IMG/VR virus record: IMGVR_UViG_3300021963_000483
Location: 1 to 29,494 of that record
Strand: one strand, 5' to 3'
Source: a virus
DNA length: 29,494 bases
Shown: positions 5,949-29,494 of the stretch, one piece after another
Position numbering within the stretch: the stretch's first letter is position 1
Layout of the letters: every line of letters starts with the position of its first letter
Notes under the pieces: generated by a model
Databases searched by the model: none
What the model saw: the letters and a program-made list of their open reading frames with translations, nothing else
What the model was told of the DNA's origin: nothing
Position numbers and translations under genes: made by a program

Positions 5949-6173
5949 TTATAGGTCTTGCCATAGCGTATTTGTGGACTCCCATCGGGTGTTGATGGTC
6001 TGCCACTCCTCGCCGCGTATCTTAACGCTTGTGCCTTGACCTACTAACGAGCCTACTCCTTGCGCCTGCAATGAGCCATCGCAGCAGTTGGACTTGTAGG
6101 TGTTGTCTTTGCACAAGCATCCACGCCTACCACCTCTCGGGGATGCAATAGGGAGTTTCATTGGTCTATACAT
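5949..6173 (-). CDS. Small Cys-rich protein of unknown function
   Basis: A 74-residue protein between the protease and scaffold-like genes, overlapping the protease end by 8 nt. It has a compact Cys cluster (GCLCKDNTYKSNCCDGSLQAQGVG, split here as GCLCKDNTYKS then NCCDGSLQAQGVG) after a basic Arg/Gly stretch. The same Cys pattern is familiar to me from small proteins in Bacteroidota phage head regions, with no known role. Four cysteines in about 15 residues could bind a metal. A second ATG at codon 5 is an alternative start. Confidence 0.55.
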   Translation of the reverse strand: MYRPMKLPIASPRGGRRGCLCKDNTYKSNCCDGSLQAQGVGSLVGQGTSVKIRGEEWQTINTRWESTNTLWQDL

Positions 6174-7098
6174 TCCCGAGTTCTTTTAATTTAGACTCTG
6201 CCCAACGCTTGCCTGCAAGACCGCCCCATAGTAGGAACGATATTGTACCACAGGCTTGGGTGTCATTCTCATCGTAGTATTCTTCGGCTCTTGATAGGTA
6301 TGAGTACATCCGTGTGATTGTCTCTACGCTCACAGGCTTGCCCTGTGCGAGCTGCTGCGCTCTTACCTTACCGACAGGTGTTGCACACTTGTTGCCGTTC
6401 TTCTCATTTAGTTCAATGCCACGCTTGGCGTTATTGCGTACGGCTTCGGGGTAATCGGTAAACGATTCCATCTCGGTGCGTGTTCCCGTCTTCTTACGGC
6501 CATCCCTTTTGATGATAGCGACAATCTGCGCAAGCATCAACGCTGCTTCCTGCTCCTCAAGGTGTGCCATCTCTTGCTTGGCAAGGTTTAGCTTGTCCAC
6601 AAAATACCCCTCAATGCTAAAGCCTTTGACCTTTCCCGTCTTGACAAAGTTTGTCCAAATCTCGGGGTTGTTGACTTTCATAGAAACCATCCACGTTCCA
6701 ACAGGCAAATCAAAGCCGTACTTCTTGCTCTTGTCTTGTACGTCATCTTCGATAATCCACGACTCTACAACCGTGAGGCCGTTGATGCCTACTTCGTGTT
6801 CAAGCGTAGCGTTGTTCTGCTTGGACTTCTGAAAGAACATCTCGCTTGCTTTGCGGATGGTGGCTTCGCTGAAGTACACATAGAACTCCTCCTGCCCTTC
6901 GGCTCGGTAGATGGGTTTGTTTGGTACGAGTGCTGCTCCCATAAGGATGCGCTTCTCATCGCTCTGCGTAGCGAACTCAACCCGTTGTGAGTTGAGTGCA
7001 ATAAAGTCCTCCTCAATCGCAGGGTATTCTACAAGGGAGATTGCATCAATGCCCGTAAGGAGCATTGATTCATCAAGTATTAGTTCAATCAGTTTCAT
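6166..7098 (-). CDS. Prohead protease (XkdF-like) with C-terminal helical domain
   Basis: A 310-residue protein. I place the start at the ATG at 7098, one base after the tape measure stop codon, because an upstream reading would overlap that gene by about 65 nt. Residues 50-170 match the XkdF-type phage serine protease pattern: ILMGAALVPNKPIYR, FYVYFSEATI, NNATLEHEVGI with likely catalytic His101, and KVKGFSIEGYF with likely Ser161. Such enzymes cleave scaffold and capsid proteins during head maturation. The last 95 residues (SFTDYPEAVRNNAKRGIELN onwards) form an extra domain I have seen attached to phage head proteins, with unknown role. It precedes the scaffold-like and capsid genes, as expected. 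Confidence 0.75.
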   Translation of the reverse strand: MKLIELILDESMLLTGIDAISLVEYPAIEEDFIALNSQRVEFATQSDEKRILMGAALVPNKPIYRAEGQEEFYVYFSEATIRKASEMFFQKSKQNNATLEHEVGINGLTVVESWIIEDDVQDKSKKYGFDLPVGTWMVSMKVNNPEIWTNFVKTGKVKGFSIEGYFVDKLNLAKQEMAHLEEQEAALMLAQIVAIIKRDGRKKTGTRTEMESFTDYPEAVRNNAKRGIELNEKNGNKCATPVGKVRAQQLAQGKPVSVETITRMYSYLSRAEEYYDENDTQACGTISFLLWGGLAGKRWAESKLKELGNV

Positions 7099-7099
7099 A

Positions 7100-8659
7100 T
7101 TATCCAAAGGTTGCGGTTCGTATGCGTCTGCGGTCAAGCTCTGTTCCCGAAATAACCTCGCCACTTACAACGTAGGCTTTCATAGGCTTTTGGAATTGAG
7201 CCGCGAGGCTTTCTACTAAGATGTTGTTTCCACTACGAGAAACGAGGTTAAATTGAGCAGGTTGAGGTGGCGCTTGAATAGAGGTGCTTCCGCTATAAGA
7301 CGCACCGCCTCCCGAAGGTTGAAACTGTGTGCTTTTGATTGTTGCTACCTGTGCCAAGCCTGTGGCTAAAGCAATACCTGCCTTAACAAAGTTAGCACCC
7401 GTTAGAGCATCCTGTGGAACTGCGAGCTGCGCCGTAACTGCTGCGGCGGTAGCAGCGATGGCAGAGGCTAATTGAAGTGCTTTGTTGACTTGAAACGCTC
7501 GCTCTGCGCTTTGCTCGTTGTCAGAGTTTAGCGCGGTGTACAAATCACCAAGCGCAGAGAATGATTGTGCCGTGAGGTCAAACCCTTGTTGTGTTGCTTC
7601 GATTCTTGCTTGCTGAATTTGACGCTCATTATCCTCTACGAACAAACGATAGTCACGCTCAATCTGCTCTTTTTCTGCGAGCGCTTGTTGGTAGGCTACG
7701 GAGTCAGCATCGTAAAGAGCCAACGTTTTATTTAGACGCGCAGTCTCGTTTTGGAATATCAATTCTTGAAAGTAAGCCTCTGTCTGTAACTTATCCGCTT
7801 GAGTGCGTTGGAATGCAACGTTTTGCTGCTTTTCAAACTCAAAGCGTGATGTTTCTGCATTAGATAAAATTTGCTCAATATCCAAACGCTCACGAGCGAG
7901 GGCAAGGTTGTTTGCTAAAAACTCCGACTCTTGACCGCGCAGGCGTTCTTGGATGTCAAGCTGCTCGGTAAGGGCTTGCTCAAGGGCGACCTGATTCTCA
8001 ATGTTATCAATGCGGCCTACCTCAGCTTGTGCTGCCGCAATCTTTACATTTACCGCTGCCTGCTCCGCAGCAAGTTGCTCTTTTAGAATTTCATTTAGGT
8101 TCTCGTTTGCCGCTTCGCGCTCGGACAGGCTATTGCGCTCATCATCGCGAATCTGACGCTGCTCCTCTGCAAGAATTTGATATTGGAACTGAAGTTTGAT
8201 GCGCTGCACCTCTGCAAGCTGCGCCAACTTTTGCAGTTCAACAAGCTGCTTCGCTTGGTCAAGTACTCCCGTAAACGCCTCACGCAAACTCTTTTTGCCA
8301 CCCGTAAAATACTCTACCAAGTTGCTTACCAAAAGCTGCGCTGCAAACAATCCCGTGTTTAGTACATCAACAACCTTTTGGTTTTGCGTAAACGCTTCGC
8401 TTGCTGCATCGGTTAGTTTGGTGATAACGCCAAGAGCCGTAATGTTTTTGATTAGGCTTTTAATTCCCTCACCCGTCTTCTTTACCTCTTTCTCTACACC
8501 CTTTACAGAGGCTTCGGCCTTGTCAAACGATTTCTCGGCAGTAGTACCTACGGTCTTGACATTCTTATTGAGGTCTTTTACCTCCTCATTGATTTGGTTG
8601 ACGGTTTGCTCGAAGTCACTACCATCAGCCTCAATCTTAATTGTTTCTACTACTGCCAT
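7100..8659 (-). CDS. Tail tape measure protein
   Basis: A 519-residue protein with the layout of a tape measure: an N-terminal VVETIKIEADGSDFEQTVNQ segment, a long Gln/Glu/Ala-rich coiled coil (about residues 125-370, with many AEEQRQIRDDERNSLSER-type heptads), and hydrophobic helices (LASAIAATAAAVTAQL, AGIALATGLAQVATI at about 385-445). At about 1.5 angstrom per residue it would set a tail near 75-80 nm, suitable for a siphovirus. It lies among the tail genes but straight before the prohead protease, so the tail and head modules abut here. The start codon overlaps the stop of the 45-residue gene before it. Confidence 0.75.
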   Translation of the reverse strand: MAVVETIKIEADGSDFEQTVNQINEEVKDLNKNVKTVGTTAEKSFDKAEASVKGVEKEVKKTGEGIKSLIKNITALGVITKLTDAASEAFTQNQKVVDVLNTGLFAAQLLVSNLVEYFTGGKKSLREAFTGVLDQAKQLVELQKLAQLAEVQRIKLQFQYQILAEEQRQIRDDERNSLSEREAANENLNEILKEQLAAEQAAVNVKIAAAQAEVGRIDNIENQVALEQALTEQLDIQERLRGQESEFLANNLALARERLDIEQILSNAETSRFEFEKQQNVAFQRTQADKLQTEAYFQELIFQNETARLNKTLALYDADSVAYQQALAEKEQIERDYRLFVEDNERQIQQARIEATQQGFDLTAQSFSALGDLYTALNSDNEQSAERAFQVNKALQLASAIAATAAAVTAQLAVPQDALTGANFVKAGIALATGLAQVATIKSTQFQPSGGGASYSGSTSIQAPPQPAQFNLVSRSGNNILVESLAAQFQKPMKAYVVSGEVISGTELDRRRIRTATFG

Positions 8660-8796
8660 TACCTGCGTTTTAAGAACTCATTCCAAGTCTTGGGAATTGC
8701 GTACTTGCCTTTGGCAATATCTATTGCCTCTGATTCATTGCGCCATTCCTGTAATTGCAAGAGTTCAATTAAATAACTTAAATAACTTGTCTTCAT
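8659..8796 (-). CDS. 45-residue protein before the tape measure gene
   Basis: A 45-codon gene with ATG at 8796 overlapping the preceding stop (ATGA) and a TAA overlapping the tape measure start (TAATG). This tight coupling on both sides, and the lack of any other gene in the gap, supports it being real. The N-terminal half is a Leu-rich helix (SYLSYLIELLQLQEW) and the rest is basic. Function not recognised; the position suggests a tail assembly accessory. Confidence 0.6.
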   Translation of the reverse strand: MKTSYLSYLIELLQLQEWRNESEAIDIAKGKYAIPKTWNEFLKRR

Positions 8797-10928
8797 ACTA
8801 CGTTAAGGAGTTCGAATGTTGCTTTGCCTGTGGTTAGGTTTAACTGCACATTATTAATGATATACTTCGTATTGTTCCAAATCACGATGTCGTTCATCTT
8901 AATTGTTGCCATCTTGCCCAAAGGCAGAACCGCGTCAATTCGGAATATCCTGCGAGCCTTGTTATAAAGGTCGGTGGTATAGTTCTGCCAATAGTCAGAG
9001 TAAAGATTTCGGTTTACCGTTTGTAAATGATACGGGTCAACGTCAGCACCAAAGGTGATAGAGCGCGAAGCCCCTGCGCTTTGATATCGGTTTGAGGTAT
9101 TGGCATACCAACAGGAATTTACTATTCTGCTTGTATTGTTGTCAGCGTTCACAAATGCAACGGGGTTAGCGGCTATATTGTAGTTATTAAAATATCCGTA
9201 GAACAAAATCGGTGCGCCTAAGTATTGGTTGAACGTACCATCAGAGCCTATGTCACTTGTGATGCTTTTGTAGACAAGTATGTTTGTAACGGTATTTGTG
9301 TGTTCGTCGGTTAAGCGCTCAAACAAGGGGCATTCAAATGGAAGCTCAACAAGGAACTCCTCCCCATCAAAACTAAAGAACGCTCGCAAGTCCCCGTAAC
9401 CAATGCCATAGGTCTGTTGGTATTGGAATCCGAGTATCTGCTCCGTATCTTGATATTTAAACTCAATCTCTCGGTATAGCGAGGGCCTGCCAATAGCGTA
9501 CTCGGTAATGTCAAACTCGTTTTGGTAGTTAACATCGGGGCCTGCCGCATACCAATCATCAAGAGGCTGAAGCAAGAATGTAGTGCCGCTTGGAACAAGC
9601 ACAAGATTGTAAGCCTTCAGTAATCCTGCTAAGAAGTCCTTTACCTTGATTTCGGGCATAAGGTCAGAGACCACAATCTTCGCTAAGGCGTAAGTTGCGG
9701 AGGTGGTCATAAATACATCAGCACTTGTTACAGAACTTGAGCTTGTGATTGTCATCTGCAATATCTCATAGACCATTGCTACGTTAGTGCTTGGTCGTAT
9801 CTTGATTTGAAGCGACTCAACATTATTGGTGACTGCAATATCAGAAAGGGTGATGGTGGATGTTCCGTTGCCTATTGCTTGCGCCACAAGGACGTCATTT
9901 CGGAATACACCAATATAGTAGTCATCAGCATAAGCGGGTATGTAAACATCAATGACCACATCATAGATGTCTCCCGTGCCACTTAAACCAACAGGTGACC
10001 AAGTTTCAGTAGCAAGGTTAAAATAGTCGGGCGAGGGCGCATTTGTGTCGTCAAAAGGAATGACCTCCCAAGCAGTAGCATTTGGCTGACCTTCGTATGA
10101 ATAGCCCTCGTACCTATGCAGCCAAAGCGATAGGTCGGTGAAAGGCACACTACTCAAAAAAGACCCTGTGAAGGTGATTCCGTATTGAGCCTCTATTGCG
10201 TCAAGGATGGCCGTCACTTTTAGTGCAGGCTTTAACTCATAGTAATGTATGCCGTGTTGTTCGGTTGCGCCTTTGTAGTGAAGGTTGGAATCGTTTTTAT
10301 TTGCTGCATCAGAATCGTAAAACCAATTCTTTACAGGACTCATTAAAGGGAAAAACAAAGGAGCATACGCAGCAGTAGTCAATCCATTGTAAACAATAGT
10401 ATCTGTATAGGCTCGGTCATAGGCACTGAAGTCAACATCATACAAATAGTCCTCACCAAACAAATCAGAAAGCGTTACCAACTCACCATAAAAAGTGAGC
10501 GTGTACGCGTAAATCTCCGTGCCTTTATACTGCACGTCCTCAATCTCAATTACTCCCGAGCGGAACGGAATTGAGTTGATTTCAATTTGAGCAGACTGAC
10601 GGAAGCGACCATCAAAGTTATTAGGGACTGTATTGCTTGACTCGGATGTGTTCCAAGCGGTTGCGTTGTTGTTCCAAATAGTACTCCAAGTATTCCAAAG
10701 CAGTTGCGATGGCACGGTAGTCACTGTTGAGGTTGCTATATTGGTATTTCCGTAAAAAGCAAATATCTCGTTATTAGTAGCCGTTGCAGGAACCGTGAAG
10801 CTCTGCGTAAAATCCGTGAACGTCTTGCTTATATCTTGAATATTCTGAACCGACAGGTTGATGCTAATCTCCTCATCGTTGAATAGGTCAAGCCTAAAGT
10901 CATTAACGTAAATATCAACCTTGTTCAT
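8793..10928 (-). CDS. Large tail/baseplate structural protein
   Basis: A 711-residue protein opening with MNKVDIYVNDFRLDLFNDEE and VQNIQDISKTFTDFTQSFTV, a beginning I associate with large tail-tip or baseplate proteins of Bacteroidota phages. The rest is beta-rich with many aromatic residues (Tyr, Trp, Phe) and few Lys, as in tail-tip proteins. Near residue 80 there is a Trp/Asn-rich segment (LLWNTWSTIWNNNATAW) that resembles the C-terminus of the small protein at 29248-29454. It overlaps both neighbours by 4 nt. A host-contact or tail-tip hub role is likely by position, but no enzymatic motif is visible. Confidence 0.6.
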   Translation of the reverse strand: MNKVDIYVNDFRLDLFNDEEISINLSVQNIQDISKTFTDFTQSFTVPATATNNEIFAFYGNTNIATSTVTTVPSQLLWNTWSTIWNNNATAWNTSESSNTVPNNFDGRFRQSAQIEINSIPFRSGVIEIEDVQYKGTEIYAYTLTFYGELVTLSDLFGEDYLYDVDFSAYDRAYTDTIVYNGLTTAAYAPLFFPLMSPVKNWFYDSDAANKNDSNLHYKGATEQHGIHYYELKPALKVTAILDAIEAQYGITFTGSFLSSVPFTDLSLWLHRYEGYSYEGQPNATAWEVIPFDDTNAPSPDYFNLATETWSPVGLSGTGDIYDVVIDVYIPAYADDYYIGVFRNDVLVAQAIGNGTSTITLSDIAVTNNVESLQIKIRPSTNVAMVYEILQMTITSSSSVTSADVFMTTSATYALAKIVVSDLMPEIKVKDFLAGLLKAYNLVLVPSGTTFLLQPLDDWYAAGPDVNYQNEFDITEYAIGRPSLYREIEFKYQDTEQILGFQYQQTYGIGYGDLRAFFSFDGEEFLVELPFECPLFERLTDEHTNTVTNILVYKSITSDIGSDGTFNQYLGAPILFYGYFNNYNIAANPVAFVNADNNTSRIVNSCWYANTSNRYQSAGASRSITFGADVDPYHLQTVNRNLYSDYWQNYTTDLYNKARRIFRIDAVLPLGKMATIKMNDIVIWNNTKYIINNVQLNLTTGKATFELLNVV

Positions 10929-15337: not shown

Positions 15338-15598
15338 CTAAATAACTCTTTTAGCAAGGTGGTGATTGTGTGTTGCTTGAAGTCGCTCTTTCCATTGCTT
15401 AATATCGCCATAAGCAACGTGGCAATTACGGCAGAGGGCCATTAGGTTTTCTATGGTATCAGCAATTTTGCTTCCACCCATCCCACGAGATTCGATGTGG
15501 TGGATGTCAACCGCAGTACCTCCACAGACTTCGCAGGGTATGAAGTCAGTTGTGGAGTAGCCCATCCCTTTGAGATAGACCTTTGTGTGGTTTTTCAC
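15338..15598 (-). CDS. HNH endonuclease
   Basis: An 86-residue HNH nuclease. Two Cys pairs (Cys22/25 and Cys56/59) would hold a structural zinc, and the catalytic core is VDIHHIESRG (Asp31, His33, His34) with Asn51 and His60. The GTG at 15598 overlaps the methyltransferase stop (GTGA) and gives the N-terminus MKNHTKVYLKGMGYSTTDF, which matches what I recall for this family; a TTG at 15613 is the alternative. HNH proteins next to terminase genes are often part of cos-type packaging, and this one is just upstream of terS. A free-standing homing role is less likely for such a short, conserved gene in this order. Confidence 0.8.
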   Translation of the reverse strand: MKNHTKVYLKGMGYSTTDFIPCEVCGGTAVDIHHIESRGMGGSKIADTIENLMALCRNCHVAYGDIKQWKERLQATHNHHLAKRVI

Positions 15599-16122
15599 CT
15601 TTGGTAAATCCAACAGTCATCAATGAACCAAGCACGGGGCAGCAGTTCATCTACGGCTTGGATTACTCCCTTCCAATTCTCGTGGTAGTCATCTCCTGCG
15701 ATGAAGCCTCCCTTCTTTACTTTAGGTAGCCACAGCTTGATGTCTTCCTTTACCGCCTCATAGGTATGGGTGAGGTCTATGAATACCACGTCAAGGGATT
15801 CCTTGAGAAACATTTTTGCAGCTACTTTGGATTCTCCTTTGATTACATTGTACTTGCGCTCACCCATATTCTCTAAGAACAGGTCATAGATGTCTATCTC
15901 CGTTGCGAGCTTGTGGGTGGTTGTGAGTTCGTTTGGTGAACCCTTCCAAGAATCAATGATTGTGATGTTTTGGTGTGTTGCTTTGTCGCATAGGTAGGCC
16001 GATGACTTCCCGAGCCACGCCCCCAACTCTACGAACGTGCCGTCTTCAGGCATATTGGCAAGGAGGTAGTCGTATGCTGCTTGGTGGTTGAACCACCCGT
16101 CTATGTCTTTTGAAGCTTTCAT
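15595..16122 (-). CDS. Class I SAM-dependent methyltransferase
   Basis: A 175-residue methyltransferase, complete Rossmann core. Motif I is TFVELGAWLGKS (29-40, binds SAM), an acidic residue ends the second strand (ITIIDSWKG, Asp57), and FIDLTHTYEAVKEDIKLW with GGFIAGDDY follows, as in the Methyltransf_24 type that often acts on sugars or small molecules. There is no DPPY/NPPF or Cys-catalytic motif, so it is not a typical DNA base methyltransferase. The ATG at 16122 overlaps the previous stop (ATGA). It is coupled with two glycosyltransferase genes, suggesting O-methylation of a sugar. Substrate is unknown. Confidence 0.8.
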   Translation of the reverse strand: MKASKDIDGWFNHQAAYDYLLANMPEDGTFVELGAWLGKSSAYLCDKATHQNITIIDSWKGSPNELTTTHKLATEIDIYDLFLENMGERKYNVIKGESKVAAKMFLKESLDVVFIDLTHTYEAVKEDIKLWLPKVKKGGFIAGDDYHENWKGVIQAVDELLPRAWFIDDCWIYQR

Positions 16123-16646
16123 CGTAATGCGTTGTAATAACAAAGATACTGCTCTACGCAGATAAGTGTTCCTTGTTCGGATGCTGCTTGGGCAAAGGTG
16201 CCATCTGCCTCATACGTCATTTCAAAGCGTAGGTTGGGCAGGTCGTATGGCTTAAACATATAACAGGCGGTGTCTATGTTGCCGACTTGTGGTTGGTCGG
16301 TAGGGCGTAGCCTACCTACTTGCCCCCACGTTACGATTGAGCAATCAAGTCCGTTTAGGTTGTTCCACTCTTCAAGGAACTTTGGGTGCAGCACGTTATC
16401 ATCATCCAGATAATAGACCCAATCCTCTTTGGTAAAGGAATCAGCATACAAGTCAAGAAACTCATTGCGTAGTGGGTTGCCCATATCCCCCGTGCGGGTG
16501 GAGTAATGTGTGATTGATGCGCTTGTTGCTCCCTTGAAGTCGCAATTTGCGTCTATCATCACCACCCACGTTGCATAGGCAGGGATATGCTGTTTTAGCC
16601 TTACGAGGTTGTGAGGTCGTGAGCAGGGCGTAACTATGTAAAGCAT
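16119..16646 (-). CDS. GT-A glycosyltransferase-like protein
   Basis: A 175-residue protein with the start of a GT-A fold (MLYIVTPCSRPHNLVRL) and a metal-binding acidic motif, WVYYLDDDNVLHPKF (Asp81-83), as in family 2-like enzymes. It transfers sugars from nucleotide-sugar donors. It is short for the family (usually 230 or more), which suggests a minimal catalytic domain, as found in phages. It overlaps the GT-B gene by 13 nt. Acceptor unknown: candidates are DNA bases, virion proteins or a host glycan. Confidence 0.7.
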   Translation of the reverse strand: MLYIVTPCSRPHNLVRLKQHIPAYATWVVMIDANCDFKGATSASITHYSTRTGDMGNPLRNEFLDLYADSFTKEDWVYYLDDDNVLHPKFLEEWNNLNGLDCSIVTWGQVGRLRPTDQPQVGNIDTACYMFKPYDLPNLRFEMTYEADGTFAQAASEQGTLICVEQYLCYYNALR

Positions 16647-17572
16647 CGCAGTTCGTTTATTTTCTCCATCGTGAAGTCCTGCACATACTCGTATAACGAT
16701 TCTGTTAGGTCAGCAACTTGGTTAGGGTTTTCACTTAGCCTCTTGATTGCTCCTGCCCATTCGCTTGGGTGCTTGATGGCAATGCAGTTCTCTTTGGTGA
16801 TATAGGGTGAATAGGGTTGTGTGTTGCTCACTATCAAAGCGCACTTGCTAAACCCCGCCTCAAGCATCTTTAGGTGCGACTTGCACTTGGCAAACTCTGA
16901 ACCACTTAATGGCACAAGGCTAACGTCAAAGTAATTGTAGAGCTTGTGATAGTGTGTTGGTGGCATCGGGGGCAGCTTGTAGCTTGCCCTCATTATTTCA
17001 GGGTACCCATCCACTTCTGCAACATAGCTTTGATAGCCTTCAAGGTTGATTGTGGACTCTCTAACATCTGCGGCGTGGTGGTTGCCTCCGATATAACCAA
17101 AGCGCACTTCTTCGCTTGGCTCTCTCTCTACCTGCCACGTTGGCACGCTGATGGCATTGGGAATGATTCGGATGTTGGTATTGTACTTCTTGACCTTTGA
17201 GGCAAGGTGCTTGTTTGTCACCCATACCTCATCCGCTGCTTTCATAGAGCGGATAATCTTCATCTTCATTTGAGCTGAATATACCCCAAGCAGAGGATGG
17301 GTAGGAGGCAGCACCCACCAATCATCGTTATCAACAATTAGCTTGATGCCCTCCTTACGGCAGAGCTTTACAAAGTCATCAAAGGGCTCAACGGGGAATA
17401 CCCGTGACGTGAAGATGTGAGTAACCTTCGGCCATATCTCAGGTTCAATGTCAGTAATCTTCTCAATAAAAAAGACATCTACATCCTTGTGGCATATCAA
17501 GGGTGCAAATGTCCTGTGGTGTGATACACCCGAGTTCTGCTTGTGGAAGGCAAGCACAAAGGGTCTAATCAT
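16634..17572 (-). CDS. GT-B glycosyltransferase (GT4-like)
   Basis: A 312-residue protein with a two-domain GT-B layout. The N-terminal half has VTHIFTSRVF, KLIVDNDDWWVLPPTHPLL and ADEVWVTNKHLASKV; the hinge is IRIIPNAISV; the C-terminal half has VRFGYIGGNHHAADV and KCKSHLKMLEAGFSKCALIVSN, where the Lys and Glu of such a segment bind the sugar nucleotide in GT4-type enzymes. The C-terminus closes with a long helix, usual for these folds. The start overlaps the preceding gene by 4 nt. Together with the GT-A and methyltransferase genes it forms a translationally coupled trio. Confidence 0.75.
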   Translation of the reverse strand: MIRPFVLAFHKQNSGVSHHRTFAPLICHKDVDVFFIEKITDIEPEIWPKVTHIFTSRVFPVEPFDDFVKLCRKEGIKLIVDNDDWWVLPPTHPLLGVYSAQMKMKIIRSMKAADEVWVTNKHLASKVKKYNTNIRIIPNAISVPTWQVEREPSEEVRFGYIGGNHHAADVRESTINLEGYQSYVAEVDGYPEIMRASYKLPPMPPTHYHKLYNYFDVSLVPLSGSEFAKCKSHLKMLEAGFSKCALIVSNTQPYSPYITKENCIAIKHPSEWAGAIKRLSENPNQVADLTESLYEYVQDFTMEKINELRCFT

Positions 17573-17724: not shown

Positions 17725-17921
17725 TTATCGTTGGTGTTAAAGGTTTCTTTAAGTTGCTCGTATGTTGATTGTGAGGCTTCACCCCAATACATTTCGCATT
17801 TGCCGTTCTTGATAGGTACGCCAACAAAGAATGATTGGTACATTCCCGTTGGGGCAGTATAGCGGTAGCAGGTTTCTTTTAGTGGACAGCCCTCTCCTGT
17901 GCATTTAGTGATGTCGGTCAT
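17721..17921 (-). CDS. 66-residue Cys-containing protein, unknown
   Basis: A small protein with an N-terminal Cys cluster (CTGEGCPLKETCYRY, three Cys in 12 residues) and a fourth Cys in NGKCEMYWGE, enough to bind one zinc ion or iron-sulfur centre. Similar small Cys proteins are frequent in Bacteroidota phages and have no known function. ATGA coupling joins it to the exonuclease-like gene before it. Confidence 0.6.
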   Translation of the reverse strand: MTDITKCTGEGCPLKETCYRYTAPTGMYQSFFVGVPIKNGKCEMYWGEASQSTYEQLKETFNTNDK

Positions 17922-18688
17922 AACGTACCCACAACTGTGTACGAGTCTAAGTCTTCACCCAAGATGAAAAACTTCTTGTAGGTCTCGATCGCTTCTAAAG
18001 TCTTGCGCTCACCTTCTGCTACAAACTCAGGGCTAACTCCATAAATACCTATGTCAAGGCTTGCCTTATCAATAGCGATAAAGAAGAACTTGTCTATAGG
18101 CACTCCAAACAATCTGGTGTAGATGAACGCTTGTACGTCGTAACCATACTTCTTAGCAGAGTAAGGAAATGCTCGTAGGTCGGTTGTCGTCTTCAAATCA
18201 GCCAAGAAACCATCTGCGTAAATGTCAGCTTTCGCCCTAAAGGGCAGGCCACCAATCATACCAATCTTTGGTACTTCAAACTCGCAGCCTGTGAGCAAGC
18301 CAAGCACGTTCTCATTGCGAAGCAGTGCATCAGATATTCTCTGAGCCTCGTTGTACTCTTTGCGGGTACATAGGTTGCGCTTTCCTTTTGCATCTTGCCA
18401 AGCCTTAGCTGACTTGCTCTGCACTTCAATCACTTCGTAGTCAGCCACTTTATGCGGCTCAAGGGCCATTAAGTGTACTAAGCGACCTACTGCAAACGCA
18501 TCAGAATCATCGTTGCCATACTTTGTAACGTAGTAGTACGTCTTTGGCGAGGTAAGCAGCAGCTTGCAAGCAGATGAGGACAGAGCGTTCTTACCGAGCA
18601 CCCCGTAGTAAAAGTCATCATCGTGCATCTTCTCAAGGACTGTGTCCATGTCCCAAGTGCTGCCGTCTAAAAGTTCTATAATTTTCAT
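17918..18688 (-). CDS. PD-(D/E)XK exonuclease, DUF3799/RecE-like
   Basis: A 256-residue nuclease. Features follow the DUF3799/RecE order: ALSSSACKLLLTSPKTYYY (35-53), FAVGRLVHLMALEP with His72, FRAKADIYADG with Asp155, FLADLKTTTD with Asp164 and Lys166 (the D-x-K part), and YGYDVQAFIYTRLFG with Gln186. Such enzymes digest one strand of double-stranded DNA and usually work with a single-strand annealing protein, which I do not find here. The SSB-like protein at 24492-24929 may partner it. Two bases before the start lies AAAACCAATC, the shared early start element. Confidence 0.8.
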   Translation of the reverse strand: MKIIELLDGSTWDMDTVLEKMHDDDFYYGVLGKNALSSSACKLLLTSPKTYYYVTKYGNDDSDAFAVGRLVHLMALEPHKVADYEVIEVQSKSAKAWQDAKGKRNLCTRKEYNEAQRISDALLRNENVLGLLTGCEFEVPKIGMIGGLPFRAKADIYADGFLADLKTTTDLRAFPYSAKKYGYDVQAFIYTRLFGVPIDKFFFIAIDKASLDIGIYGVSPEFVAEGERKTLEAIETYKKFFILGEDLDSYTVVGTL

Positions 18689-18690
18689 AA

Positions 18691-18726
18691 GATTGGTTTT
18701 GATATTAAATGTTCTTTACAAATGTA
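18691..18726 (-). promoter_or_regulatory. Start element AAAACCAATC and -7-like box before the exonuclease gene
   Basis: The element AAAACCAATC (18691-18700) ends 2 nt before the ATG. Further upstream, TACATTTG (18719-18726) matches the Bacteroidota -7 box TAnnTTTG, but no convincing TTTG lies 17-23 nt upstream of it, and it falls inside the end of the previous gene. The element is better supported than the promoter. Confidence 0.5.
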
Positions 18727-19262
18727 CCGTTAATCATTTTGCCTTTTCTATTTTTAATAACATTATAGGCTGAATTTAAACAGTCTTCGATCTTAACTTC
18801 TTCTATTGCAGCAAGATTCGTTAGAACAACAATGATGTCACCAATGGCGTCGATCAACTCAACTTTGTTAGATTTTAAAATAGCCTGCGATAGTTCGCCA
18901 CATTCTTCTAATAGTTTTAGATATTGTGTTTTTGTATCGCCTTGAGATATTAAATTTCTATCGTTAGCCCAATCTCTAATTGCTTGAAGTTCATCAGTAA
19001 GCAGCTCAGTGTATTGTGTGACGTTGTAAAAAACAGGATGGCCAACAGTTGGAACTTCTAAATTATTAGGCAGCTGAGATGTGCACTGCCAGGTTAACGA
19101 CTGTCTATTCTCCTTATATTCTAACACAATAGAATAGTCTACGTACAACAATTTTATATTGTTATTAAGACCATTGCCAAACATTTCGACAACATCAGCA
19201 TTTGATATAGTTGGTTTTTTGTCGTGGTTAGAAGAGAGTCTGTGTTTTAGGTTCTTAATCAT
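18705..19262 (-). CDS. MazG-like nucleotide pyrophosphohydrolase with extra N-terminal domain
   Basis: A 185-residue protein. Residues 86-185 match the MazG-like all-alpha NTP pyrophosphohydrolase fold: LLEECGELSQAIL with the E-E-x-x-E metal site (Glu119, Glu120, Glu123), then VELIDAIGDIIVVL with Glu135, Asp138 and Asp142, and the typical end YNVIKNRKGKMINGTF. Such enzymes hydrolyse a (d)NTP to a monophosphate. Residues 1-85 are an unrecognised domain. It overlaps the thymidylate synthase-like gene by 8 nt, so the two probably act together on deoxynucleotides. The gene is visibly AT-rich compared with its neighbours. Confidence 0.75.
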   Translation of the reverse strand: MIKNLKHRLSSNHDKKPTISNADVVEMFGNGLNNNIKLLYVDYSIVLEYKENRQSLTWQCTSQLPNNLEVPTVGHPVFYNVTQYTELLTDELQAIRDWANDRNLISQGDTKTQYLKLLEECGELSQAILKSNKVELIDAIGDIIVVLTNLAAIEEVKIEDCLNSAYNVIKNRKGKMINGTFVKNI

Positions 19263-19956
19263 TTTTCTTAAAAATTAGGTTTAACATATCAAAGTGCTTT
19301 TCATAAACGTGGAAACTGTTGGCATTATAGTATATGTGCCCTATTTCTACTTCTTTGTATAATTTCTTCACGTCTTGCAAGAAACGTTCTTGAACAGTGG
19401 CAAACCAATAAAAGTCATTGAAGAAGCCATATATCGCGTCATTAGATCGCATATTAACAACGCTGTGTAGTTTGTTATCCCTTATAAAGAAATGATGCGC
19501 TAGCGTGCAAATAAAATCATTCTTACTGTTTTCAACACTATCACCGTGCATTGACGGTCTGTTGTAAATCATTATTGCTCTACGTGAATGCTTGCTCTGC
19601 TTTAATTGCATTAAAGCATTTTCATACTGATTGTGATTCTGATCAGAGTAAACAAGGTGACCATAGTTAGAATTGATCTTACTGTCAACACCACAGATCT
19701 TAAGCCATAGCGATGCGTGCTTGCCAATTTCGCTAACGCTCAAGTCTTGAGAATCGTACCATTTTAGCTCTTGCTCTACGTACTTAGTTGGCGTTTGCCT
19801 GCCCTTAAGTTTAATAATCTTGTCTGTTGGATCAAGTATCATATTAGCATTTAGCACCTCAACCATCTTTGTAGCGCCGTCTATAACAAAAATGTTATGA
19901 TCAAGATTATACTTTAGCTTTTTAAGCACACTAACAAGCTGTGTTTTATTTTTCAT
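19255..19956 (-). CDS. Thymidylate synthase/deoxypyrimidine hydroxymethylase homologue
   Basis: A 233-residue protein, with start at the ATG at 19956 that overlaps the previous stop; earlier starts would overlap far more. It aligns with thymidylate synthase: VEQELKWY with the catalytic Glu (Glu63), NSNYG, the nucleophile Cys150, and RSND with Arg170 exactly 20 residues later, as in E. coli (Cys146, Arg166). His216 and Tyr218 in SFHVY match the dUMP-binding H-x-Y. At the position of E. coli Asn177, 11 residues after the Arg, it has Asp181. That change is what gives T4 dCMP hydroxymethylase its preference for cytosine. So it may make 5-hydroxymethyl-dCMP, although methylation of dUMP cannot be excluded. 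The product is short and lacks some TS loops. Confidence 0.65.
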   Translation of the reverse strand: MKNKTQLVSVLKKLKYNLDHNIFVIDGATKMVEVLNANMILDPTDKIIKLKGRQTPTKYVEQELKWYDSQDLSVSEIGKHASLWLKICGVDSKINSNYGHLVYSDQNHNQYENALMQLKQSKHSRRAIMIYNRPSMHGDSVENSKNDFICTLAHHFFIRDNKLHSVVNMRSNDAIYGFFNDFYWFATVQERFLQDVKKLYKEVEIGHIYYNANSFHVYEKHFDMLNLIFKKND

Positions 19957-20218
19957 AATCACCATTTTTAAAATTGTCAAACGATCCTGCGTAGGCAATA
20001 AGATCTAATATGGTGTCTCTCTTGCTGCTGTACCCAAGTCTTGATAGCTTAAGTGCCATCATACACTTGTAAAAATCTTCTGTGGTGATTTCTTTACCGC
20101 AAAGTTCTGATGCTATTACAGCAGCCGAGCTCATTGATTTAATTATTGGACCATATTGGCGCTCCTTTTCTTCATTGCGCTCAAATATGATCTCATTGGC
20201 TTGATCAAAAATTGTCAT
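19946..20218 (-). CDS. Small DUF6378-like protein
   Basis: A 90-residue protein, mostly helical, with REKERQYGPII-like start (EEKERQYGPIIKSMSSAAVI), a middle GKEITTEDFYKCMMALKLSRL and an end DTILDLIAYAGSF. This is the pattern I know for DUF6378 phage proteins. The family has no proven function. It is coupled to the thymidylate synthase-like gene by an 11 nt overlap, which links it to nucleotide metabolism. The start is preceded by AAAACCAATC 7 nt upstream. Confidence 0.65.
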   Translation of the reverse strand: MTIFDQANEIIFERNEEKERQYGPIIKSMSSAAVIASELCGKEITTEDFYKCMMALKLSRLGYSSKRDTILDLIAYAGSFDNFKNGDYEK

Positions 20219-20225
20219 TGTATCT

Positions 20226-20268
20226 GATTGGTTTTAGTAAATGTAAGCAAAAATGTTTACTTTTCAAA
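20226..20268 (-). promoter_or_regulatory. Promoter and start element before the DUF6378-like gene
   Basis: TTTG (20265-20268) is 19 nt from TACATTTA (20238-20245), a one-mismatch match to the Bacteroidota promoter TTTG-N19-TAnnTTTG on the minus strand. Two bases later comes AAAACCAATC (20226-20235), ending 7 nt before the ATG. The promoter overlaps the end of the preceding small gene. It would drive the DUF6378-like, hydroxymethylase-like and MazG-like genes. Confidence 0.6.
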
Positions 20269-20430
20269 TGTCGATTCGTACCATTGCTCAAATGGAACGC
20301 TAACTGATGAATCGAGGTAAGCGTAACGTAAGTGTATGGCCTCAATAGTTTCAATGTCTTTAAGGATTGATTCAGATATGTCTACCGACTTCAGCTCTCG
20401 GAGTAGTTGGGATATAGTTTGGTATTTCAT
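20257..20430 (-). CDS. 57-residue protein, unknown
   Basis: The frame is open further upstream, but I place the start at the ATG at 20430 because AAAACCAATC ends 2 nt before it and because this avoids overlap with the preceding gene. The product is acidic and helical (KYQTISQLLRELKSVDISES, then ILKDIETIEAIHLRYAYL). I do not recognise it. Confidence 0.6.
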   Translation of the reverse strand: MKYQTISQLLRELKSVDISESILKDIETIEAIHLRYAYLDSSVSVPFEQWYESTFEK

Positions 20431-20432
20431 TT

Positions 20433-20442
20433 GATTGGTTTT
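20433..20442 (-). promoter_or_regulatory. Start element AAAACCAATC
   Basis: A perfect copy of the early start element, 2 nt before the ATG at 20430. No -7 box is visible upstream, so here the element appears without a promoter. This argues for a role in translation and not in transcription start. Confidence 0.55.
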
Positions 20443-20444
20443 AA

Positions 20445-20771
20445 TTATTCTTCGGATGCGACTTGAGTTGCCCAATTAAGCCACTTGGTGTAGATGTCAT
20501 CGGCAAGCTTTGGGGCTTCTCCATAAATGGATGTCGTAGGGTAGGCTACGGTATTAGTGTAGCCATCCTCATTGTAGGTCTCTTCAACGTAGGTTATGTC
20601 CATCTCGTAGTTGTAGAAGTCAGCGACGTGAACGTAGCCGAGAAACTTAGCAAGAATCTCATCGCTATTCTTATTGTCGGGGTCGTAATCCTCAAGGGCA
20701 TCCCAATAAGACTGCGGTAAAAGGTCGGCATCTTCAAGCCAAAACTTTAGGTCGTTGTATGTGAATATCAT
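20445..20771 (-). CDS. 108-residue acidic protein, unknown
   Basis: A strongly acidic protein (many Asp/Glu, few Lys/Arg) rich in Tyr and Trp, starting MIFTYNDLKFWLEDADLLPQ and ending WLNWATQVASEE. It overlaps the 30-residue membrane peptide gene by 4 nt. Small acidic early phage proteins often bind and inhibit host proteins or mimic DNA, but nothing specific shows that here. Function not recognised. Confidence 0.6.
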   Translation of the reverse strand: MIFTYNDLKFWLEDADLLPQSYWDALEDYDPDNKNSDEILAKFLGYVHVADFYNYEMDITYVEETYNEDGYTNTVAYPTTSIYGEAPKLADDIYTKWLNWATQVASEE

Positions 20772-24935: not shown

Positions 24936-24945
24936 GATTGGTTTT
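24936..24945 (-). promoter_or_regulatory. Start element AAAACCAATC before the SSB-like gene
   Basis: A perfect copy, 6 nt before the ATG at 24929. It overlaps the stop codon of the upstream 46-residue gene by 2 nt, so no intergenic promoter is needed and none is clear. This favours a translational role. Confidence 0.55.
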
Positions 24946-25500: not shown

Positions 25501-25721
25501 TGAATGGCGAAGTGCAGGTCTATCTTGGCAATCTCACCGAGTAGCTCTTGTTCTTTGTATTTGGCCTGTTGGCGAGATTGGTAGTCCGAGTCGCAGTTAG
25601 CCATCAGCGAGGCACACTCCTCAAGGATAAAGTCTATCTTCCTGCGTTTGGCAGGGTTAGTATAGTACTGCATATCGGCCTGTTGTTGTTTGGCTTCCTT
25701 CGCTTGCTGCTCGTTGCTCAT
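25473..25721 (-). CDS. 82-residue protein, unknown
   Basis: A helical, Gln-rich protein. I chose the ATG at 25721; a TTG at 25739 is possible. It overlaps the DUF3310-like gene by 65 nt. The core AKRRKIDFILEECASLMANC and EQELLGEIAKIDLHFAIQCG has two helices and two Cys. I do not recognise it. Confidence 0.5.
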   Translation of the reverse strand: MSNEQQAKEAKQQQADMQYYTNPAKRRKIDFILEECASLMANCDSDYQSRQQAKYKEQELLGEIAKIDLHFAIQCGYLIPDN

Positions 25722-25914
25722 CTTGGCGTTCAAGTTCAAAATTTAGGTGAGCGATAGCCTTGCGGATGTCATCGCATATCGGGTTGTGTGGTTTCTTGCC
25801 TGCTCGCATTATGTAAGTTAGAGCAGTACCCAAGTTGTAGTTATCGGGTTGGAAGTCCATCACAACATCCTTCGCCTCTATCTTCAACGTCTTGCCGATG
25901 TAGTACTTTGGTGT
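25657..25914 (-). CDS. DUF3310-like protein
   Basis: An 85-residue protein, taking the ATG at 25914 so that the N-terminus is MTPKYYIGKTLKIEAKDVVM; an ATG at 25959 would add 15 residues. The core PDNYNLGTALTYIMRAGKK with DIRKAIAHLNFELE is the DUF3310 pattern found in phage early regions (called nucleotide kinase in some phages, without proof that I can give). It is the first gene after the control region. Confidence 0.7.
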   Translation of the reverse strand, partial: TPKYYIGKTLKIEAKDVVMDFQPDNYNLGTALTYIMRAGKKPHNPICDDIRKAIAHLNFELERQDEQRAASEGSQTTTGRYAVLY

Positions 25915-25978
25915 CATTAGCCAAAGGTACATCATCCCAATAAATGTAGATGTGGTCATTCATTATTTAGAATCATTA

Positions 25979-29247: not shown

Positions 29248-29454
29248 TTAATTCCAAGTTGTTGACCAAGTATTCCAAATTTCTTCTATCAACTGCCAAG
29301 CACCTTGCTCGTTGTTGCCGTAAAGGTTAGTAGTAGGATGACCATAAGACAATGGCTGAACCATACCCCAAGAGATATCGTTTGTAGCTGCTGCTTGACC
29401 CCAATAGATGTCATTGTTTGCTGCTCCTTGTCCCCAATCGCCTTGAACTCCCAT
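29248..29454 (-). CDS. 68-residue Trp/Asn-rich tail-region protein
   Basis: A small gene just before the fibre-like gene, the first after the circle junction. It contains an imperfect internal repeat (GQGAANNDIYWG and GQAAATNDISWG) and ends EEIWNTWSTTWN, like WNTWSTIWN in the 711-residue tail protein. The shared W-N-T-W-S-T motif suggests a shared binding partner or a Trp-rich interaction patch. Otherwise unknown. Its 5' part is repeated at 1-87. Confidence 0.55.
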   Translation of the reverse strand: MGVQGDWGQGAANNDIYWGQAAATNDISWGMVQPLSYGHPTTNLYGNNEQGAWQLIEEIWNTWSTTWN

Positions 29455-29494
29455 TGTCTAAATAACTCTTTAACTTCACAATGTTGCTACGCTT
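29368..29494. repeat. Terminal direct repeat, right copy
   Basis: Identical to positions 1-127. Joining the two copies gives a circle of 29,367 bp and leaves every gene intact, including the small tail-region gene that starts within the repeat. Confidence 0.95.

Follow-up and report, generated by a model that had tools for sequence, protein, structure and literature searches.

A predicted T4-type dCMP hydroxymethylase in a three-gene cassette at a variable DNA-modification cargo site of a 29-kb phage

Results

Three overlapping genes form a cassette in a small phage genome

The window, i.e. the whole stretch of 29,494 nucleotides analyzed here, is a virus contig from environmental DNA and has the appearance of a complete genome of a very small phage. 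Bases 1–127 are identical to bases 29368–29494, constituting a direct terminal repeat of 127 bp, and the contig probably represents a complete, circularly assembled genome with a unique length of ~29.37 kb once the repeat is counted once. The large terminase is nearest to those of Bacteroides, Parabacteroides and Phocaeicola phages (~43% identity), and a search of cellular genomes with the terminase for a host found none.

On the minus strand, three genes are arranged head to tail with overlapping ends. The first gene (19946–20218) encodes a 90 aa protein of the DUF6378 family (PF19905, 3e-12). It is followed by a gene of the thymidylate synthase (TS) superfamily (19255–19956; 233 aa counted from the ATG) and by a gene for a MazG-like NTP pyrophosphohydrolase of 185 aa (18705–19262). 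The latter matches PF03819 (7.4e-7; 29.8 bits at a cut-off of 22) and PF01503 (1.9e-5), and carries the EExxE and ExxD motifs of the family as EExGE and ELID; the EExGE and the D-rich motif are kept in 46 relatives. We predict from its linkage that this protein is a dCTPase. The original prediction comprised two genes, a TS homologue coupled to a MazG-like gene. Indeed, both are present and overlap by 8 bases, but DUF6378 as a third member, and thereby the true extent of the unit, as well as the whole-genome status of the contig, had been missed.

DUF6378 is modeled as an all-helical protein and has the invariant charged residues E16, E17, K18, R20, K57, R60, D68 and D72. No recognizable fold emerged: Foldseek and VIA-align returned nothing significant (best Z 4.4). 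As a guess, the protein might be a small pyrophosphohydrolase-like subunit.

The central enzyme carries the residues of a dCMP hydroxymethylase

PHROGs and Pfam label the product of the central gene as thymidylate synthase, the Pfam match (PF00303) having an E-value of 3.6e-13, so that its description as a TS homologue holds. However, phmmer places it far closer to T4 dCMP hydroxymethylase (2.4e-42) than to E. coli TS (0.046), and T4 dCMP hydroxymethylase (gp42; 35% identity) is also its closest solved relative. In a tree of 113 rows, some deep joins of which involve long branches, the enzyme falls into a clade of 58 rows together with T4 gp42 (support 100/99), apart from E. coli ThyA. The AlphaFold model (pLDDT 96.2) superimposes best on the T4 enzyme (6a9a; Z 28.4, rmsd 1.8 over 224 residues), followed by MilA (Z 23.9), while TS structures reach Z 21.9 at most.

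Of the catalytic residues, the nucleophile Cys150 (codon 19507–19509, minus strand; T4 C148) and Arg170 are separated by 20 residues, exactly as are C146/R166 in E. coli TS and C148/R168 in T4 gp42. Glu60, Tyr96, Cys148 and the phosphate-binding Arg123/124 of T4 correspond to E63, Y98, C150, R125 and R126, and the folate-site residues Asp173 and Gly177 are kept as well. Asp181 (codon 19414–19416, minus strand) pairs with T4 Asp179 and E. coli TS Asn177 in an ungapped alignment, and Asp is invariant in this column throughout the set of 42 relatives used for folding. The original prediction had placed Asp at this pyrimidine-selectivity position and had named alignment to TS and dCMP hydroxymethylase as well as modeling of the enzyme as checks; both came out in its favor, the column holding Asp rather than Asn.

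According to published work on the T4 enzyme, D179 is the mark for cytosine, whereas an Asp (or Glu) three residues before the nucleophile, D145 in T4, and S94 are the marks that drive hydroxymethylation; in TS, the place of Asp145 is taken by Leu (PMC6400193). The window enzyme has Asp147 (codon 19516–19518, minus strand; E. coli TS L143) three residues before Cys150, and in addition Ser96. At T4 positions 94/96/145/148/149/179 both the window enzyme and T4 gp42 read S-Y-D-C-T-D, while E. coli TS reads P-Y-L-C-H-N and the dUMP hydroxymethylase of SPO1 A-Y-D-C-N-N. The SPO1 string shows that the Asp associated with hydroxymethylation and the Asp associated with cytosine vary independently of each other. 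Where TS has Asn177, Leu143 and a C-terminal closing tail, which it uses to methylate, the window enzyme has Asp, Asp and no tail. Taken together, sequence, phylogeny, active site and model predict that the gene encodes a dCMP hydroxymethylase of the T4 gp42 type rather than a plain TS, in agreement with the earlier reading of this locus.

The S-Y-D-C-T-D string also occurs in gene 47 of Microbacterium phage BouleyBill (locus L012, 4367–5179), which is annotated as thymidylate synthase. BouleyBill has a genome of 39 kb, and genes for MazG, a thymidylate kinase and a polymerase are located near gene 47. In total, matches to the window enzyme were obtained for 191 Microbacterium phage records, providing a cultured group in which 5-hydroxymethylcytosine (hmC) could be tested.

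DUF6378 and MazG frame exchangeable central enzymes

To describe the genomic context of DUF6378, the closest 80 relatives from viral contigs were reduced to 58 distinct loci by removal of duplicates, loci resembling that of the window being counted. As these loci were picked by similarity to the window protein, the following holds for this subfamily. A TS-family gene is present within 1.2 kb downstream of DUF6378 in 52 of the 58 loci and at 3.3 kb in one more; in the remaining five the contig ends within 640 bases. The central enzyme has Asp at the 177 position in all 51 cases that could be scored. A MazG gene is found within 1.3 kb in 43 loci, 48 loci having room for one. Thus, PF19905 is conserved upstream of Asp-type TS homologues, and the DUF6378-TS-MazG operon recurs across diverse viral contigs. 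The linkage is not universal: distant DUF6378 copies (~35% identity) in two actinophages reside among replication genes and have no annotated TS gene adjoining.

Most central enzymes of these operons read [K/P/R]-Y-[L/I]-C-[Y/F/H]-D, i.e. the position equivalent to TS Leu143 holds Leu or Ile, and many of these enzymes end in a TS-like tail such as APVAI. Conversion of Asn to Asp turns TS into a dCMP methylase, as cited in PMC8670742, and on this basis we predict that the methylase-like enzymes make 5-methyl-dCMP. When the window is compared with these methylase-like cassettes, DUF6378 is 53–69% identical and MazG mostly 48–65%, but most central enzymes share only 22–32% identity. Moreover, this MazG is missing from the 81 loci that were retrieved around other enzymes of the T4 type or related to it. 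Similar flanks around divergent centers, together with T4-type loci free of this MazG, indicate at the level of sequence that one central enzyme has been swapped for another within a retained DUF6378/MazG frame, in one direction or the other.

Two further variants were seen. The DUF6378-linked TS homologues at L245 (4886–5629) and L237 (1057–1872) read Y-Y-R-C-S-D and resemble neither methylases nor hydroxymethylases. The MazG protein of some sister cassettes (e.g. L182, 5024–5767) has an N-terminal T5orf172/MUG113 (GIY-YIG-like) domain.

The cassette occupies a site that holds other DNA-modification genes in related phages

The cassette fills an insertion site (18689–20256, minus strand) between a small conserved gene upstream (20257–20475, minus strand), delimited by comparison of relatives, and a gene for a PDDEXK exonuclease-like protein (DUF3799; PF12684, 2e-24) downstream (17918–18688, minus strand). 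With 35.4%, the GC content of the cassette lies at the bottom of the genome's 1.5-kb windows, the genome average being 44.3%. We compared this site in relatives, whose terminases are 95–99% identical at the protein level and whose DNA is mostly 80–93% identical to the window in the four genes tested. Among 59 distinct haplotypes the site is empty in 33 (9–15 bp), carries a C5-cytosine DNA methyltransferase in 15 (PF00145, E about 1e-65), Mom in four (PF25680, 4e-42) and the cassette in six, while one haplotype has only a diverged flanking gene at this place. No C5-methyltransferase was found in the window, nor was Mom, the latter in a search run without a positive control. On a tree of the exonuclease gene, the methyltransferase state needs 11 changes and the cassette state a single one; accordingly, the cassette itself contributes few independent gains to the argument from the site. 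As judged from sequence, all cargoes identified at the site are DNA-modification systems. The strongest indirect argument for a role of the cassette in DNA modification is that each alternative cargo identified has such a role. The pattern suggests that this is a locus where related phages trade one means of disguising their DNA for another.

The C5-methyltransferases at this site (L017, 5015–6322; L022, 5014–6321; L051, 4922–6322; L039, 4631–5467) range from 279 to 467 aa and have kept ends and a strongly variable middle, a pattern suggestive of shuffled target-recognition parts. Separately, the motif AAAACCAATC is present on the minus strand at 18691–18700, 20226–20235, 20433–20442 and 24936–24945, several copies being located directly before start codons; 13 matches with at most one mismatch compare with 3.2 expected. 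Its copy before the exonuclease gene accompanies every cargo type looked at and is absent at empty sites. The motif may act in translation or in recombination.

Three neighboring genes encode a Methyltransf_24 protein (15595–16143), a GT2-like (16119–16646) and a GT4-like glycosyltransferase (16634–17572), all on the minus strand. Relatives keep these genes whether or not they carry the cassette, and the genes therefore have no evidence value for a glycosylated form of hmC. The GT2-like gene had no match in phage records, and a search without a positive control yielded no TS-family match in phage phi92, where the GT-B gene has a homologue. Relatives carry further variable inserts in this region: one separates the 17721–17921 gene from the GT4-like gene (L072, ~6000–7460), another the Methyltransf_24 gene from the HNH gene (L032, ~8500–9370).

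Discussion

We propose, with a probability of roughly 70%, that the three overlapping genes are an acquired cassette for making hydroxymethylated cytosine nucleotides, by which the phage DNA would be hidden from host nucleases. MazG, possibly together with DUF6378, would convert dCTP to dCMP, lowering the competing dCTP and supplying substrate. The central enzyme would bind dCMP through Asp181, Cys150 would attack C6, and a one-carbon unit would be taken from methylene-tetrahydrofolate. Water activated by Asp147/Ser96 would then attack the exocyclic methylene to yield 5-hydroxymethyl-dCMP. Once host kinases have produced hm-dCTP, the host polymerase would incorporate it into phage DNA. T4 employs its own kinase gp1 for phosphorylation. 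In the window there was no match to a gp1-type (PF21448), cytidylate (PF02224) or thymidylate (PF02223) kinase, and no family A DNA polymerase was found. The sole kinase candidate is a doubtful call, a weak DUF3310 match (25657–25959) that PHROGs names ‘nucleotide kinase’. As no kinase or polymerase gene was recognized, the host would have to supply both, and against our explanation stands that incorporation would depend on enzymes of the host, which may reject hm-dCMP.

The same lack of a dedicated kinase or phage polymerase would suit a role confined to the nucleotide pool, e.g. in starving or confusing defenses that sense dCTP, with little hm-dCMP reaching DNA. Since the other cargoes identified at the site, C5-methyltransferases and Mom, modify DNA itself, we regard this as improbable. 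Phage XP12 contains 5-methylcytosine that stems from methylation of dCMP, and the window enzyme could likewise be a dCMP methylase, given that this is the predicted activity of most other DUF6378-MazG cassettes, with their Leu or Ile at TS position 143 and frequent TS-like tails. Yet Asp147 and Ser96, the missing tail and the position within the T4 hydroxymethylase clade make this very unlikely. A 5-hydroxy-dCMP synthase as in RB69 or AfhB, which would give rise to 5-hydroxycytosine, deserves similarly little credence: such enzymes are dCMP-specific members of the TS superfamily (PMC13390438) and AfhB fits the model with Z 23.2, but the window enzyme matches AfhB at 4e-5, as against 2e-42 for the T4 enzyme, and it shares only 26% identity with the RB69 enzyme over 135 residues. 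Moreover, the folate-site Asp and Gly retained in T4, the window enzyme and E. coli TS give way to the stretch RSQNCAVV in RB69. Finally, an ordinary thymidylate synthase providing dTMP for phage replication, as the Pfam and PHROGs names would have it, is hardly credible in view of Asp at 177, Asp at 143, Thr at 147, the lack of the C-terminal tail and the far closer similarity to the T4 enzyme.

Beyond the hydroxymethylation cassette itself, we tentatively advance a wider view, to which we give slightly less than even odds. DUF6378, a dCMP C5-modifying enzyme and MazG would form a mobile module, in which only the center is swapped and sets whether 5-methyl- or 5-hydroxymethylcytosine is made, and in which DUF6378 is a new partner in dCMP modification. 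A 29-kb phage without a polymerase or kinase of its own would replace cytosine by means of host enzymes, and the module would compete with C5-methyltransferases and Mom for one site. The findings connect an uncharacterized family, DUF6378, with predicted pre-replicative cytosine modification, make use of sequence rules that tell predicted methyl- from hydroxymethylcytosine phages, and reveal a natural site where whole DNA-modification strategies are exchanged among related phages. If the virion DNA holds hmC, the genome would, to our knowledge, be among the smallest that use this base, and reliance on the host replication machinery would bear on how easily the trait spreads between phages.

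Some of these elements are already known. Besides dCMP hydroxymethylases as such, the MetaGPA study (PMC8670742) describes, for environmental phages, Asp177 as a marker of contigs whose cytosine is modified, as well as the co-occurrence of TS and PRA-PH domains. In the passages covered we found no mention of DUF6378, exchange of the center or this cargo site. Likewise, a literature search of partial coverage found nothing on DUF6378 in modification, on center exchange or on this site, and none of the papers naming DUF6378 concerns DNA modification, as judged by title.

The cassette can be set against several known systems. The T4 pathway consists of gp42, the dCTPase gp56, kinase gp1 and glucosyltransferases. 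The window enzyme belongs to the same family as gp42, has all catalytic residues named above and is coupled to a pyrophosphohydrolase-family gene. In contrast to T4, the genome comprises 29 kb, DUF6378 is a partner, MazG takes the place of gp56, no gp1-type kinase or polymerase was found in the window, and the nearby glycosyltransferases are not tied to the cassette. In XP12, which is compared here by description, a TS-family enzyme also acts on dCMP prior to replication, and this chemistry is likely that of most sister cassettes, whereas the window enzyme has the marks for hydroxymethylation and lacks the TS tail. The RB69/AfhB enzymes share the TS fold and specificity for dCMP; however, RB69 has lost the folate-site Asp/Gly that the window enzyme keeps. 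The MetaGPA phages (PMC8670742) resemble the window in having Asp177-type TS homologues with PRA-PH/MazG domains, but that study stresses carbamoyltransferase partners. Finally, phage C5-cytosine methyltransferases and Mom are encoded at this very site in related phages and act on DNA after replication, while the cassette would act on the nucleotide before replication.
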